Source of the DNA: Nanobdellota archaeon
GTDB lineage: Archaea > Nanobdellota > Nanobdellia > Pacearchaeales > GW2011-AR1
DNA: 64,000 nt
Assembly (NCBI GenBank): GCA_027858295.1
Contig: JAQICZ010000004.1
Span: 1-64,000, forward strand
Direction: 5' to 3'
Numbering within the stretch: the stretch's first letter is position 1; every line of letters begins with the position of its first letter. The notes below the pieces were generated by a model. It was not told the DNA's origin and did no database searches. It worked only from the letters and a program-made list of their open reading frames with translations. Both the position numbers and the translations under genes were made by a program. Of this stretch, positions 6,857 through 48,984 are shown in pieces.

Positions 6857-6921
6857 AATTAAATTAATGAGAACTTACTTTTAAATATTTAGTTTTTCTT
6901 GCGCGGAGAGGGTTGAAGTCG

Positions 6922-7019
6922 GTTTACTGTTGATGGTCTATGGTTGACGGTTATCAGTTGACGGTGGACGGTTATCAGTTGACAGTTGACAGTTGACGGT
7001 GAACGGTCTACGGTTGACG
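6922..7019. repeat. 14 consecutive degenerate heptamers (GTTGACG/GTTATCA/GTCTATG type)
   Basis: Read in register: gtttact gttgatg gtctatg gttgacg gttatca gttgacg gtggacg gttatca gttgaca gttgaca gttgacg gtgaacg gtctacg gttgacg. Confidence 0.95.
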
Positions 7020-7027
7020 GATTATAT

Positions 7028-11200: not shown

Positions 11201-13756
11201 TGATGAATTAAATAAATTAAATGTCACATTTGTATCACTTTCATCCCCCACACTCACATTAACAAAAATCCAACTCTCCTTAGATGCAGAATCATTAGAA
11301 TAAGTTGGGCTAATATAAAGAACAACGGGGGCAGAAAAATCAACAGAAAAATTAGCGGTATAAGAATCAATACTACTAGTATTTTTAACATAAATCGTAT
11401 AATTTGACACCCCTTCATCAATCTCATAAAAATTCGCACGATAAGCTGACCCATTATACAACCCTAAAACTTCCTCGTCAGAAAGAGCTCTGTCTAGAAT
11501 AATTAATTCATCAATAACAGACTCAGCACCAGAAGTTATTGAATCAACTCCCCCTAAATATTCAGAATTTAGAAACCGATGAAGCTTTTCGCCATTTAGA
11601 TAAAAATCTCCACCAATCTTCCCACGCCTAACATAAGCTATATTATTAATGCCCGATGGTAAATTGATATCATAAAAACTAGAACCAAAATTCATAACAG
11701 AAAATTCTCCAGAATATCCTTTATTCAAATAAAAGCTATTTGACCCTAAAGACAATATCTTTTCACCCAATAATTCAATAGGAACTAAACTTTCACTAAA
11801 AATATACCCTCCCCCTAATTGCCCCGCAGAATAACTTCCACAACATACTAAAGAATCACCTGATAAAAGACCACAAGAGTGAGAGCCACCTAAAGATATG
11901 GAGGTGAAATTGTAGTCTCCGGGAACTAAAACAGGGGAAGTCTGCCGAGTAGTTGAACCAATACCTAAGTTACCATTGCTATTACTACCCCAGCACATCA
12001 AGGAGCCGTTTTGTAAAAAACCACAAGAGTGAGAGTAACCTAAAGAGGTGGAGGTGAAATTGTAAGCTCCGGGAACTAAAACAGGAGAAGTTTGCTCAGT
12101 AGTTGAACCAATGCCTAATTGACCAAAGCCATTATATCCCCAGCACATCAAGGAGCCGTTTTGTAAAAGACCACAAGAATGGTACTGACCTAAAGAGGTG
12201 AAGGTGAAATTGTAAGCTCCAGGAACTAAAACAGGAGAAGTTTGCTCAGTAGTTGAACCAATGCCTAATTGACCATTACCATTATTCCCCCAGCACATCA
12301 GGGAGCCGTTTTGTAAAAGGCCACAGGAGTGAGAGTAACCTAAAGAGGTGAAGGTGAAATTGTAGTCTCCAGAAACACGATTAAATTTATTTATTAATTC
12401 ATTAAACCAAAAACCTAATTGACCATAGTTATTACTACCCCAGCACATCAAGGAGCCCTTTTGTAAAAGACCACAAGAGTGATACTCACCTAAAGAGGTG
12501 GAGGTGAAATTGTAACCGCCAGAAACTAAAACAGGGGAAGTCTGCTGAGTAGTTGAACCAATGCCTAATTGACCCTGGTAATTACGACCCCAGCACATCA
12601 AGGAGCCGTTTTGTAAAAGGCCACAAGAATGATAAGATCCTAATGATATGGAGGTGAAATTGTAAGCGCCAGAAACTAAAACAGGAGAAGTCTCCCGATA
12701 ACTAGTAAAACCAATACCTAATTGACCGTAATTATTATATCCCCAGCACATCAGGGAGCCGTTTTGTAAAAGGCCACAAGAATGATACCGACCTAAAGAG
12801 GTGGAGGTGAAATTGTAAGCTCCGGGAACTAAAACAGGAGATGTCTGCTGAGTAGTTGAACCAATACCTAATTGACCATAGTAATTACGACCCCAGCACA
12901 TCAGGGAGCCGTTTTGTAAAAGGCCACAAGAGTGATAGTAACCTAAAGAGGTGAAGGTGAAATTGTAAGCTCCGGGAACTAAAACAGGAGAAGTCTGCTG
13001 AGTAGTTGAACCAATGCCTAATTGACCATAGTAATTACGACCCCAGCACATCAGGGAGCCGTTTTGTAAAAGACCACAGGAGTGATAACCACCTAAAGAG
13101 GTGGAGGTGAAATTGTAAGCGCCAGGAACTAAAACAGGAGAAGTTTGCTGAGAAGTTGAACCAATACCTAATTGACCATAGCTATTACGACCCCAGCACA
13201 TCAGGGAGCCGTTTTGTAAAAGACCACAAGAGTGATAAAAACCTAAAGAGATGGAGGTGAAATTGTAAGCTCCGGGAACTAAAACAGGAGAAGTCTGCTC
13301 AGTAGTTGAACCAATACCTAATTGACCATAGTTATTACGACCCCAGCACATTAGGGAGCCGTTTTGTAAAAGACCACAGGAGTGATAGGCACCACTACTA
13401 ACCTGCTTAAATTTCTCACTCTCATTACTAACATTCAACCAAAAAGATAAAGTATATTCTCCCTTGGCCGCATCCAAAGAAATCGGCTCATTTATTGGAG
13501 TGACTGAAGTATTCCTCGCTTCAGAAAATTTCCCAACAGCGCTTTCCCCATCAAAAGTCAACCATTTCAAAATATTATCATTCAAAATAGTAAAAGAATA
13601 GTAATCCCCAGACACTGAGAAATTAACATCTACATAGAAATTATCTTGGTTCAATACCCCTGCACCTGGAATAGACGACGACGCAAAGATTGTAGCAAAC
13701 CCCAATCCTAATACGCCAATAAAAATTAAAATACCTAATAAAAATTTAGATCGCAT
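8243..13756 (-). CDS. giant surface protein: 11 RCC1-like repeats, LamG-like region, Ig-like/COG1361-like region, C-terminal TM and coiled coil
   Basis: Repeats of YHSCGLLQNGSLMCWGRNNYGQLGIGSTTEQTSPVLVPGAYNFTSISLG; long extracellular region; TM SAGIFTGFLILVVLVYYF. Confidence 0.9.
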   Translation of the reverse strand: MRSKFLLGILIFIGVLGLGFATIFASSSIPGAGVLNQDNFYVDVNFSVSGDYYSFTILNDNILKWLTFDGESAVGKFSEARNTSVTPINEPISLDAAKGEYTLSFWLNVSNESEKFKQVSSGAYHSCGLLQNGSLMCWGRNNYGQLGIGSTTEQTSPVLVPGAYNFTSISLGFYHSCGLLQNGSLMCWGRNSYGQLGIGSTSQQTSPVLVPGAYNFTSTSLGGYHSCGLLQNGSLMCWGRNYYGQLGIGSTTQQTSPVLVPGAYNFTFTSLGYYHSCGLLQNGSLMCWGRNYYGQLGIGSTTQQTSPVLVPGAYNFTSTSLGRYHSCGLLQNGSLMCWGYNNYGQLGIGFTSYRETSPVLVSGAYNFTSISLGSYHSCGLLQNGSLMCWGRNYQGQLGIGSTTQQTSPVLVSGGYNFTSTSLGEYHSCGLLQKGSLMCWGSNNYGQLGFWFNELINKFNRVSGDYNFTFTSLGYSHSCGLLQNGSLMCWGNNGNGQLGIGSTTEQTSPVLVPGAYNFTFTSLGQYHSCGLLQNGSLMCWGYNGFGQLGIGSTTEQTSPVLVPGAYNFTSTSLGYSHSCGFLQNGSLMCWGSNSNGNLGIGSTTRQTSPVLVPGDYNFTSISLGGSHSCGLLSGDSLVCCGSYSAGQLGGGYIFSESLVPIELLGEKILSLGSNSFYLNKGYSGEFSVMNFGSSFYDINLPSGINNIAYVRRGKIGGDFYLNGEKLHRFLNSEYLGGVDSITSGAESVIDELIILDRALSDEEVLGLYNGSAYRANFYEIDEGVSNYTIYVKNTSSIDSYTANFSVDFSAPVVLYISPTYSNDSASKESWIFVNVSVGDESDTNVTFNLFNSSMNLINSTTSGSSSEINWTGLVEGTYYYNVTAFDAANNSAYELTRKITLDFVTPTFIWESPTPDNRSGIIESFLINLTFNDNYDLEEFVYYFDGDIENVPFISGSSSILSGTANVDIICSSAVNCNVLINQTGIVSGVLYEYNITVTDFALNSNYTETRVVRGNSAPVLNPVIYSPNSDDDVDPDSIILFNMTVSDFDYNLETVVLQIKNDTDLWNQAMDVSFENYSQTGFVYKWNSSYTFDGVSEGIYNIRVVARDILGGEDVSDEENISVYWDCTWSSTTDLGAVAGWNKNKFVGNITINNTGDSEFADGNCGLMFKLSHELTAGRVYFDDSALNQWLVYYDSSVVSAETSLVVPVNISFLGQVLQEDTTFLIEEFTSISSQENESVDISIVSNQEGPYFYSSITSAPSSVDLLENTFNLGGYLRNLMGDSIVNENNTAYNVTLEWILPTGLEISENTSLFFENISDNQLHNYISSIEFSSVKDFSPGVQKIKLRASGVNVSGAAIAGSDGAVVFEDSVEVNFVCSNITDRIYVTACGAADADYEAPVITLPGSPRGGSGGGGGASSGNLFDKSEASFELLNGEIKEFVLTIENKYSYSKENLEVTVSGENAEYVIPVPDFIKEIKPKSDYELSVKIAAPTYFNKGKYLLKFKFRGELIREDGTRQGSYSEEKFVTLYITERTRDVADEYLEKANELLVEMENSSFVVRSAKGIIEKMNESYTEVDFLKVEESFNEFQEIRNSAVEGKSLMTELKTKMDWAEKYGMNVVETRKLILLAEAVFERGDYLLARQKIDEALSMYAYETKGEIKLFYLIKNHPLESAGIFTGFLILVVLVYYFSRRFYLKRKIKSLENEGVLLLGLMEEIQKKCFNEAKMSMTEYSHSMEEYQTQLAESIKNEIKFKNKLQHFFKFKGKFKKLLSEKERFLELISELQTKYMKKGEVDARVYENLMKTYSKHLGEIEEELSFLEVKKFLNKNARRKNK
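11880..13395 (-). repeat. 150-bp tandem coding repeats (RCC1 array)
   Basis: About ten near-identical units of about 150 bp plus one divergent terminal unit. Confidence 0.95.
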
Positions 13757-17858: not shown

Positions 17859-17914
17859 AGTTTAATTATCCGTCGCGCGGCGTGCATGGAGGGTGTGTTT
17901 TAATCAGAGTAGTT
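17859..17914 (+). repeat. modular intergenic repeat (core form)
   Basis: GTTTAATTATCCGTCGCGCGGCGTGCATGG...TTTTAATCAGAGTAGTT. Confidence 0.8.
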
Positions 17915-27801: not shown

Positions 27802-28494
27802 ATGGATATTATTGAGTCGTTAAAGGAAGAGGCTAAGTATTTGCTTGAGGAAGGAGAAGGGGTTCATGATTGGGATCATACTCTTCGTGTTTATAATTTA
27901 GCTATGCATATTGGGCAGATTGAGTGTGCTGATTTGGAGGTTCTTGGGATTGCTGCTATTTTGCATGACATTGGCCGTCCGACCGAATCAAAGCTTCGGA
28001 GCTGTGAATCGTTAATCGTCGACCGTAAACCGTTGAACGTGGACCGTAAACCGAAAGACCCTTGTCATGCTGAGATTGGGGCTTTAATGGCGGAAGGGAT
28101 TCTAACAGGATATGGACTTGGAAAGGAGACAATCGAAAAGATTAAAGGTTGCATTTTAAAACATCGATTTAGCAGGGGTCATACTCCGGAGACTAAAGAG
28201 GAAAAGATTCTTTATGATGCGGATAAGATTGATAATATTGGAGCAATTGGAATTCTACGGGCGGCTAATTATTCTGGAACTTACAATGGAAGAACTCATA
28301 ATCCTGAAGTTCATCATGAAGATGTTCGGGCTTATTCTAGGGAAGACACAGCATATCAGCATTATCATATCAAGTTAAAGAAGATTAAGGATAAGTTGTT
28401 TACAGCTGAGGCAAAGAGGATTGCTGAAGGGCGGCATGATTTTATGAAGGATTTTTTTGATCGGGTTAATGCTGAGTGTCGTGGGGAAATTTAG
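27802..28494 (+). CDS. HD-domain phosphohydrolase
   Basis: HDWDHTLRVYNLAMHI...AILHDIGRP...LYDADKIDNIGAIGI. Confidence 0.9.
   Translation: MDIIESLKEEAKYLLEEGEGVHDWDHTLRVYNLAMHIGQIECADLEVLGIAAILHDIGRPTESKLRSCESLIVDRKPLNVDRKPKDPCHAEIGALMAEGILTGYGLGKETIEKIKGCILKHRFSRGHTPETKEEKILYDADKIDNIGAIGILRAANYSGTYNGRTHNPEVHHEDVRAYSREDTAYQHYHIKLKKIKDKLFTAEAKRIAEGRHDFMKDFFDRVNAECRGEI
28002..28053. repeat. degenerate heptamer array inside the HD-domain CDS
   Basis: ctgtgaa tcgttaa tcgtcga ccgtaaa ccgttga acgtgga ccgtaaa ccg; reverse complement of the 6922-7019 heptamer type. Confidence 0.9.
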
Positions 28495-34570: not shown

Positions 34571-34720
34571 TTGCTGAGCAGAGCTCAGTTATTAGGGCAG
34601 ATTGGTATACTGAATTAGTCGTTCGCGTAATGCCATTCGCTTTGGGTATATGGCTTGCCAAAAAAGCTGCGGCATTTTTGTATCTGCGTGCATATAGGGT
34701 TAGAGATTAACAGAGTAGTT
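34571..34720 (+). repeat. modular intergenic repeat, near-complete form with inserted hairpin module
   Basis: GCTGAGCAGAGCTCAGTTATTAGGGCAGATTGGTATACTGAATTAGTCGTTCGCG-[TAATGCCATTCGCTTTGGGTATATGGC..TTTTTGTAT]-CTGCGTGCA...GATTAACAGAGTAGTT. Confidence 0.9.
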
Positions 34721-36050: not shown

Positions 36051-36239
36051 ACGTTTTATAGTACCAATGGCATGACCCGATAGGGGAAGCTGGGCCTCAG
36101 TTGAGATTTAATGGAGTAAATTATGCCCGCAGCGCAGCGGAGCATATTATGCCTTCTGTGGGTGGGAGTTTCATATCAGTGATAAGTACTAAAGCAACAA
36201 AAAGCTGAGATGAATTGTTTGGGAGGGGATAAAATGGTT

Positions 36240-36360
36240 TACCATTCACTTGTTTGTATGGGTGTCAAAAATTCAGACAGGCCAAATTGATTGAAAAACA
36301 ATTTGACGAATTTTTGTATGGGAGTTATCAATCTGAATATCTAATTTGGTTAAGTCAAAT
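36240..36360 (+). repeat. bulged hairpin module plus GGAGTTATCAATCTGAATATCTAATT tail
   Basis: ACCATTCACTTGTTTGTATGGGTGTCAAAAATTCAGACAGGCCAAATTGATTGAAAAACAATTTGACGAATTTTTGTATGGGAGTTATC. Confidence 0.85.
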
Positions 36361-41620: not shown

Positions 41621-41766
41621 TCTCAATTGATATTCATTAGAACCAGGTATTGATCCTAACAATCTGGCTAAACCAAGCACCATTCACTTTGGTATAAGTG
41701 GAATTACCATTCGCATCCTGAATATGGGAAAATAAAATGTCTTGATTTCTACATTTTATTTAGGGT

Positions 41767-41990
41767 GCCAAAATTTCAGCCTGGTAAAATCAATTGGTAA
41801 ACGATTTTACGAAATTTTGTATTAGCCATTCACTTTTGGAATATGGCGTGCCAAAATTTCAGGCAGGTAAAATCAATTGGTAAACGATTTTACGAAATTT
41901 TGTATTAGCCATTCACTTTTGGAATATGGCGTGCCAAAATTTCAGGCTAGTAAAATCGATTGGTAAACGATTTTACGAAATTTTGTATGA
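41767..41990 (+). repeat. three tandem 83-bp bulged-hairpin modules
   Basis: GCCAAAATTTCAGGCAGGTAAAATCAATTGGTAAACGATTTTACGAAATTTTGTATTAGCCATTCACTTTTGGAATATGGCGT starting at 41767, 41850 and 41933. Confidence 0.95.
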
Positions 41991-47958: not shown

Positions 47959-48493
47959 TTATTCATTGGCAATGAAAACCTTTTGCCAAATAGAACTCTG
48001 TAAAAGTATATGGTCTTGCAATGATTTCTTTAGATTATAATTATTTGACCAGCCAGAATAAGCAGACCAACCTTGCCGAATATTACTAAACTTTCCTTCT
48101 GATATTTTTTCTTTATTGAAACGTTCTATTTTTTTCACAAATACTTCTAATATTTCTTTTTCTAAGTAATTTATAATAATAAAAATTTCTAAATCCACCA
48201 AAATCGACTCCTCTTGAAAGATTAATTATTTTAGATTTATCTGGATGGAGTTCTAATTTTAATTTATCTTCTAGAAAGTCGACTATTTCATTCAACCACT
48301 CTTTTAATTTATATTTTGAAGGATTAATCAAAATAAAATCGTCTACATATTTAATATAATATTTACATTCCAATTTGTGCTTTACAAAATAATCTAATTC
48401 ATTTAGATAAATATTTGCGAAAAATTGAGATGTTAAATTTCCTAATGGCATTCCTTTTTCAAATGAAAAATTATATAATATTATTGATGTCAA
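47959..48493 (-). pseudogene. DGR-type reverse transcriptase, 5'-truncated and frameshifted
   Basis: KGMPLGNLTSQFFANIYLNELDYFVKHKLECKYYIKYVDDFILINP (YxDD) in ORF 48113-48493; C-terminal part FNKEKISEGKFSNIRQGWSAYSGWSNNYNL continues in another frame (47959-48201). Confidence 0.85.
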
Positions 48494-48655
48494 ATTTTGC
48501 TAAAAGTCTCGCTAACCACACGCTAGTGGAACAAAATCTCAGGCAGTAAAAAACCCTTGTGGACAACTTTACAGACAGTTAAAAACCCTTGGTAAAGTTT
48601 TCAATGCAAAGCCGTCGAGGGAAAGTTTTCAATGGAAAATTGTCTGGAGAAGGGC
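48494..48655. repeat. modular hairpin material between RT fragment and template repeat
   Basis: ACAAAATCTCAGGCAGTAAAAAACCC... shares AAAATCTCAGGCAG with the bulged-hairpin module; GCTAACCACACGCTAGTGG resembles sequence at 14750-14870. Confidence 0.6.
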
Positions 48656-48755
48656 TATTCCGAAAGCCTGGTTATTATTATCATTCCAGTTGTTGCCATT
48701 GAGATTCAATTCGCCATTATTATTATCACCCAAGACAGACACGCCTTTAATAGCC
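48655..48755 (-). repeat. DGR template repeat (TR)
   Basis: Minus strand GGCGTGTCTGTCTTGGGTGATAATAATAATGGCGAATTGAATCTCAATGGCAACAACTGGAATGATAATAATAACCAGGCTTTCGG (48745-48660), AAT/AAC-rich; partner of 48998-49077. Confidence 0.92.
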
Positions 48756-48984
48756 AATTAATTGAAAGTAAATCACCATCTCTTCAATATTCATAATATT
48801 TCAACTACTAATTGTTAAGATTGTATTTTATGGACTCGTTTGAGCCTCTATTAATTGACTTGTAGTCCTATTCTATATTTCTTGGTCATGGAAATATAAA
48901 AATTCTCCAGGACAAAATACAAATGATAAACTCACTTATCAAAATTTCGAAAAAAAACCTATACTTCAAATGCCAGTGAGCAAT

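Follow-up and report, generated by a model that had tools for sequence, protein, structure and literature searches.

The nearest known kinds of element to the hairpins described here are the bacterial REP sequences and the mitochondrial double-hairpin or repetitive hairpin-forming elements (PMC3733652, PMC2800124). With the REP/REPIN elements of bacteria and their TnpA-REP (RAYT) proteins, our family shares high-copy short palindromes, an irregularity in the stem, a presumed recognition as folded single strands via the loop or bulge, an arrangement in mosaics and tandem clusters, and restriction to a lineage. TnpA-REP and the IS200/IS605 transposases make contact with loops and with irregularities of the stem (PMC8266576), and the non-autonomous derivatives of IS200/IS605, whose hairpin ends are read as single-stranded DNA, resemble our family, which would be read in this way. 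The mitochondrial elements resemble it as small, dispersed, intergenic two-hairpin units, AT-rich types of which are known and which are presumed to be mobile with no known enzyme. The attC sites of integrons are a further likeness, being folded single-strand sites whose stems vary but stay complementary.

The window, by which we mean the whole stretch of 64,000 nucleotides analyzed, is contig C20 of the MAG G000 (64 contigs, 1,351,709 bases, estimated to be 87.9% complete). Its gene content is archaeal, with PCNA, a primase with small- and large-subunit domains, and L32e, and the small size of the genome, together with the sizes of its relatives, suggests a DPANN-type archaeal lineage. G000 is about twice the size of ten genomes of the same genus, and repeats seen at least 10 times make up 4.6% of it.

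Three bulged hairpins were found in tandem on the forward strand at 41769 to 41819, 41852 to 41902, and 41935 to 41985, with a period of 83 bp and a 96% match across 41767 to 41990, just as originally predicted. The first copy reads CAAAATTTC-AGCCTG-GTAAAATC-aattggtaaac-GATTTTAC-GAAATTTTG, the second and third have the bulges AGGCAG and AGGCTA, and the three score 70.4, 75.2, and 73.5 bits, respectively, with a covariance model. The original prediction gave each copy its own GCCATTCACTTTTGGAATATGGC hairpin (the upstream hairpin, hp1), but only two are present, both on the forward strand between the copies (41825 to 41847 and 41908 to 41930). Copy 1 is preceded on the same strand by a variant module (41706 to 41763) reading ACCATTCGCATCCTGAATATGGGAAAATAAAATGT...ACATTTTATTT, in which the hp1 ACCATTCGCATCCTGAATATGGG is followed by the simple palindrome AAATAAAATGT..ACATTTTATTT. 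The stems, bulge variants, and other copies were also as predicted: a single forward-strand copy at 36241 to 36322, consisting of the hp1 ACCATTCACTTGTTTGTATGGG and a bulged hairpin (hp2) at 36266 to 36316 (64.1 bits), and two reverse-strand copies with the different stems AAATCTC and GAAAAAT, repeated in tandem with a 95-bp period (2464 to 2514, 58.6 bits; 2559 to 2609, 51.9 bits). A further variant at 34634 to 34682 (forward) joins the hp1 CATTCGCTTTGGGTATATGG to the short palindrome GCCAAAAAAGCTGCGGCATTTTTGTAT. Three points go beyond the prediction: a nested form at 48532 to 48640 (forward), in which the loop of a host hairpin holds another bulged hairpin (TGGACAA..CCGTCGAGG); the conservation of the upstream hairpin, CATTCGC..TATGG, which many copies have in common; and the approximately 130 to 150 copies in the genome.

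This family size comprises 134 copies by the covariance model, or 148 rows in 112 clusters. The clusters are mostly extragenic, as are the short, high-copy palindromic repeats of the REP kind, with only 8 of the 112 overlapping an open reading frame of at least 110 aa; 29 adjoin contig ends, a placement expected of repeats. A scan for the architecture only (outer stem, 5′ bulge of 4 to 9, inner stem, and loop) gave 143 matches on two strands versus 27 on one strand of a Markov control, and the excess falls in bulge lengths of 5 to 6 with AGRCA(G) bulges and TTGGNAAA loops. The bulged-hairpin family exceeds chance. Across it, the one-sided AGRCAG bulge (5 to 6 nt) and the loop (A/C)TTGGNAAA are conserved. 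Both stems, by contrast, occur as many unrelated, still complementary sequences. In the common order of the unit, the small hairpin CATTCGC..TATGG comes first, a short linker (GAAAAC or GTGCC) next, and the bulged hairpin last, its place being taken in some units by a simple palindrome. The hp1 consensus has 178 pattern matches in the genome, 131 of which are followed by a recognized linker, so that two adjacent hairpins are dispersed as one unit, as in the double-hairpin elements. A three-way junction closed by an outer stem was considered and set aside, being convincing in only about 8 copies (11 of 59 with at least 7 bp, compared with a shuffled mean of 4.2 and maximum of 11).

The pairing of the stems was assessed by a noncircular test in which the arms were ignored, the genome was searched for sites matching [AG]G[AG]CA..(A/C)TTGGNAAA, and the partners were shuffled among the sites. 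Of 68 distinct sites, 52 had an inner stem of 6 bp or more, whereas partner shuffling gave a mean of 11.7 and a maximum of 21. Among 21 distinct sequences, both sides had changed at 17 of 18 pairs, and all five covariation measures were above 500 of 500 shuffles and every slid register. With 114 distinct copies, 13 of 17 pairs were significant under a tree-keeping null, which is our own approximation of R-scape with substitutions shuffled among columns and an alignment fitted to the structure; the other four consist of one invariant pair, one nearly invariant pair, and two marginal ones. The compensatory changes in both arms that had been predicted are therefore borne out, and the prediction survives the test that it had set for itself, covariation beyond phylogeny, as judged by this approximation.

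The cause of these changes is a separate matter. The prediction had attributed them to selection on structure, and selection does not stand as the sole cause, since template switching at hairpins during replication can generate perfect stems, keep them perfect, and produce compensatory changes without it (PMC8794818). It is conceivable on this basis that the family consists of old repeats, spread by homologous recombination with no dedicated transposase, in which template-switch (quasipalindrome) correction during replication keeps the two arms complementary. Single-pair transversional switches are common among near copies, and there are chimeric hairpins whose two halves are of different types, both in keeping with such upkeep. 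A template switch is, however, expected to alter blocks of pairs, and the both-side changes of close copies are mostly of a single pair (344 of 362 runs, counts that are not independent). Upkeep by itself also does not explain the conserved letters of the bulge and loop, the dispersal to more than 100 loci, or the constant single loop position of the nested modules, and we regard it as unlikely to be the whole account.

Strong covariation is likewise not proof of RNA. The prediction left RNA and cruciform DNA side by side, and the evidence favors DNA over RNA. Selected RNA is expected to tolerate G-U far more than A-C, on one strand. Among the 2,024 stem cells of 120 distinct copies, 1,829 were Watson-Crick pairs, 52 G-T, 61 A-C, and 82 other mispairs, so that G-T did not exceed A-C, even though the priors of an RNA model favor G-U. 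Among the 90 both-side changes assigned to branches of the tree, 36 were transitions able to pass through G-U (TA/CG, AT/GC), and about as many, roughly 40% of the paired switches, were transversions with no G-U route; many were A-T/T-A or C-G/A-T. The sense orientation of the clusters showed no strand preference, with 34 of 64 matching the upstream gene and 37 of 64 the downstream gene, and a bias toward the downstream gene seen in an early, smaller set (33 of 47) was gone with the full set and longer open reading frames. No Rfam match at the gathering score was found at the hairpins, the only Rfam match of the window being RT-16 at 48745 to 48901 (reverse), and the family is nearly restricted to one species at a high copy number. 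A structured RNA kept by selection on its fold, such as an untranslated-region element, a small RNA, or a ribozyme-like motif, would account for the strong covariation and for the conserved unpaired bulge and loop, as in known RNA motifs; the sequences at 41765 to 41906 fold better than shuffles, and a few masters could be under RNA selection while dead copies gather mispairs. On balance, we consider such an RNA quite improbable. The simplest reading is that DNA copies decay neutrally and that the stems stay complementary in whichever lineage gets copied. The mispair spectrum also shows a way to separate a DNA hairpin from an RNA hairpin by sequence alone.

The nested form involves another version of the module, TGGACAA-stem-AGRCA-stem-CCTTGGNAAA-stem-stem-CCGTCGGG, which occurs 37 to 38 times. 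With essentially no exceptions, this version occupies the loop of a host hairpin, where it is flanked by TTG and GGNAAA (TTG^G) and has one orientation. About 12 types of inner arm are represented among the hosts, and ten of these types are also found without an insert; tandem double inserts occur on contigs C29, C38, and C52. Some hosts, for example on C18 and C44, have arms from two types, which indicates that recombination does occur. Either insertion has recurred at a single place in the loop, or recombination has reshuffled a long form; the latter could have been a single ancestral form, given the several chimeric arms observed. Recombination between copies could also explain part of the spread.

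Taking these patterns together, the module is probably a miniature noncoding dispersed DNA element of the REP or double-hairpin-element kind, lineage-restricted and recently expanded, which would be read as folded single-stranded DNA via its bulge and loop. In this scheme, one strand would be exposed and fold, and the element would then be copied. A protein may read the unpaired bulge and loop, in which case only the complementarity of the stems, and not their sequence, would matter. The conservation of bulge and loop on free, matched stems fits the trace of enzymes acting on single-strand hairpins. The nested modules would be precise, orientation-specific joins made after TTG in the exposed loop without target duplication, and hairpin-templated correction may help to keep the arms matched. 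The mobilizing enzyme could be IS200/IS605-like (Y1 HUH) or another single-strand recombinase, missing from the MAG or unassembled in it. A more specific version, speculative and put forward tentatively, is that the family forms a single-strand DNA element system of a DPANN lineage. In it, an unnamed enzyme would recognize the folded hairpin by its bulge and loop and would place new hairpin copies in the loops of existing ones (TTG^G), so that nested arrays would build up and the stems could drift freely as long as they pair. The copies amount to a natural selection experiment, in which the stems are swapped and the letters of the bulge and loop stay conserved, showing the bases that a recognizing protein would read, and the single loop insertion site (TTG^G) is available to test.

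The family works like REP or double-hairpin elements, yet we do not count it among them. In REP sequences, an unpaired GTAG or CGTC tag is found at one end, whereas the copies of Fam1 end in GTGC/GTAT and the others in GAAAAC/GTTTA; the loop-nested type does have CCGTC after the stem, but facing GGAC within the host loop. No associated RAYT or Y1 transposase gene (PF01797) was matched in G000. For lack of the terminal tag and the transposase, the family is not filed as REP, although CGTC REPs have been reported without a dedicated transposase (PMC3733652). It further differs from REP/REPIN elements in its archaeal host, longer unit with the upstream hairpin, one-sided 6-nt bulge, and loop-nested modules, and from the mitochondrial elements in its place on an archaeal chromosome, the combination of swapped stems with conserved letters in the bulge and loop, and the specific site of loop nesting. 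An element class resembling the REP or double-hairpin kind may be added to an archaeal group of small genomes.

With respect to the IS200/IS605 derivatives, orientation-specific joining without target duplication is also the look of the nested modules, and one orientation with a fixed short target (after TTG) and no target duplication is a pattern observed at the level of these modules. Unlike those derivatives, the family has no cognate TnpA in G000 and no defined pair of left and right ends, and a target tetranucleotide is not established. Y1_Tnp (PF01797) had no match in G000 even at E = 10, an absence that is not final at 87.9% completeness; multicopy genes are often missing from MAGs. The domain is present in 80 of 207 genomes of the order, and the relative G004 has only a Y1_Tnp fragment, at a contig end and not beside its hairpins.

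The tyrosine recombinases bear on whether the hairpins could be recombination sites of an integron-like or Xer-type system, that is, attC-like folded sites. Archaeal integrons include those of Nanoarchaeota-group MAGs, with up to 107 attC sites in one archaeal MAG (PMC9668308), and attC also keeps its structure with variable stems. PF00589 matches in G000 were limited to an intact XerA (C3:70605-71441, reverse), a second XerA-like tyrosine recombinase in two degenerate copies (C12:9030-9740, reverse; C54:19875-20393, forward), and one remote match, none representing IntI, and the two tyrosine recombinases tested with the integron integrase model TIGR02249 scored below its cutoff. Moreover, there are no gene cassettes between the tandem copies, and inspection of the stem bases revealed no GTTRRRY/RYYYAAC core or core triplets. 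Such a system is very improbable here.

The preferred reading, a dispersed DNA element, includes a recent expansion, to which the distribution among relatives speaks. An 83-bp query had no match in the 10 same-genus genomes, and the covariance model, with about 130 copies in G000, found clear copies among relatives only in G004, a genome of the same genus, which has two, with different stems, the same loop, and a near-identical bulge. On these grounds, the comparison points to a recent lineage-specific expansion of the family. Weak model matches in other relatives (E values of 5e-4 to 0.05) are probably due to chance, several lying in apparent coding sequence, and the hp1 pattern gave 4 scattered matches across 85,462 species genomes, about our own estimate for chance. 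Spread by viruses or plasmids was also considered, and no viral, phage, or plasmid match was found. No consistent repeat abuts the units as a target-site duplication would, no empty-site pair was seen for the whole unit, and an excess of direct repeats derives in part from the tandem arrays. Targeting of tRNA 3′ ends was similarly rejected, with 4 of 131 units near such ends versus 2.6 expected. Two hairpin copies are flanked by repeated pieces of a tRNA 3′ end, that at C51:7310 (L013) by pieces of tRNA-Val and that on contig C11 of G004 (L133) by pieces of a tRNA-Leu-like gene.

The nested copy at 48532 to 48640 replaces the 5′ part of a reverse transcriptase gene and thereby interrupts a diversity-generating retroelement at 47959 to 48901 (reverse), which retains the RT-16 RNA (48745 to 48901) and the 3′ part of the reverse transcriptase; an intact paralogous reverse transcriptase is encoded at C51:14009-15091 (reverse). 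A hairpin copy also lies in the TR-RT spacer there (C51:15085-15135), but a link of the family to such retroelements was rejected, and the copy is taken as an insertion because 20 relative RT-16 loci lack such a hairpin.

The window contains several other repeats. Palindromes whose stems vary between conserved flanks (TTRAATTAT[stem]GGGGGCAT) occur at 17860 to 17880, 27650, 32320, 41595, 42059, 42820, and 54945 and recur within the same intergenic mosaics as the bulged hairpins. A further repeat, ACCAATGGCATGACCCGATAGGGGAAGCTGGGCCTCAG, is found at 36060 to 36100, and dispersed short tandem repeats of the GTTGACGG type at 6919 to 7020 and 28010 to 28053. Ten coding tandem repeats of 150 bp at 11864 to 13388 (reverse) lie within a protein of 1,837 aa and have an RCC1-like look by inspection.
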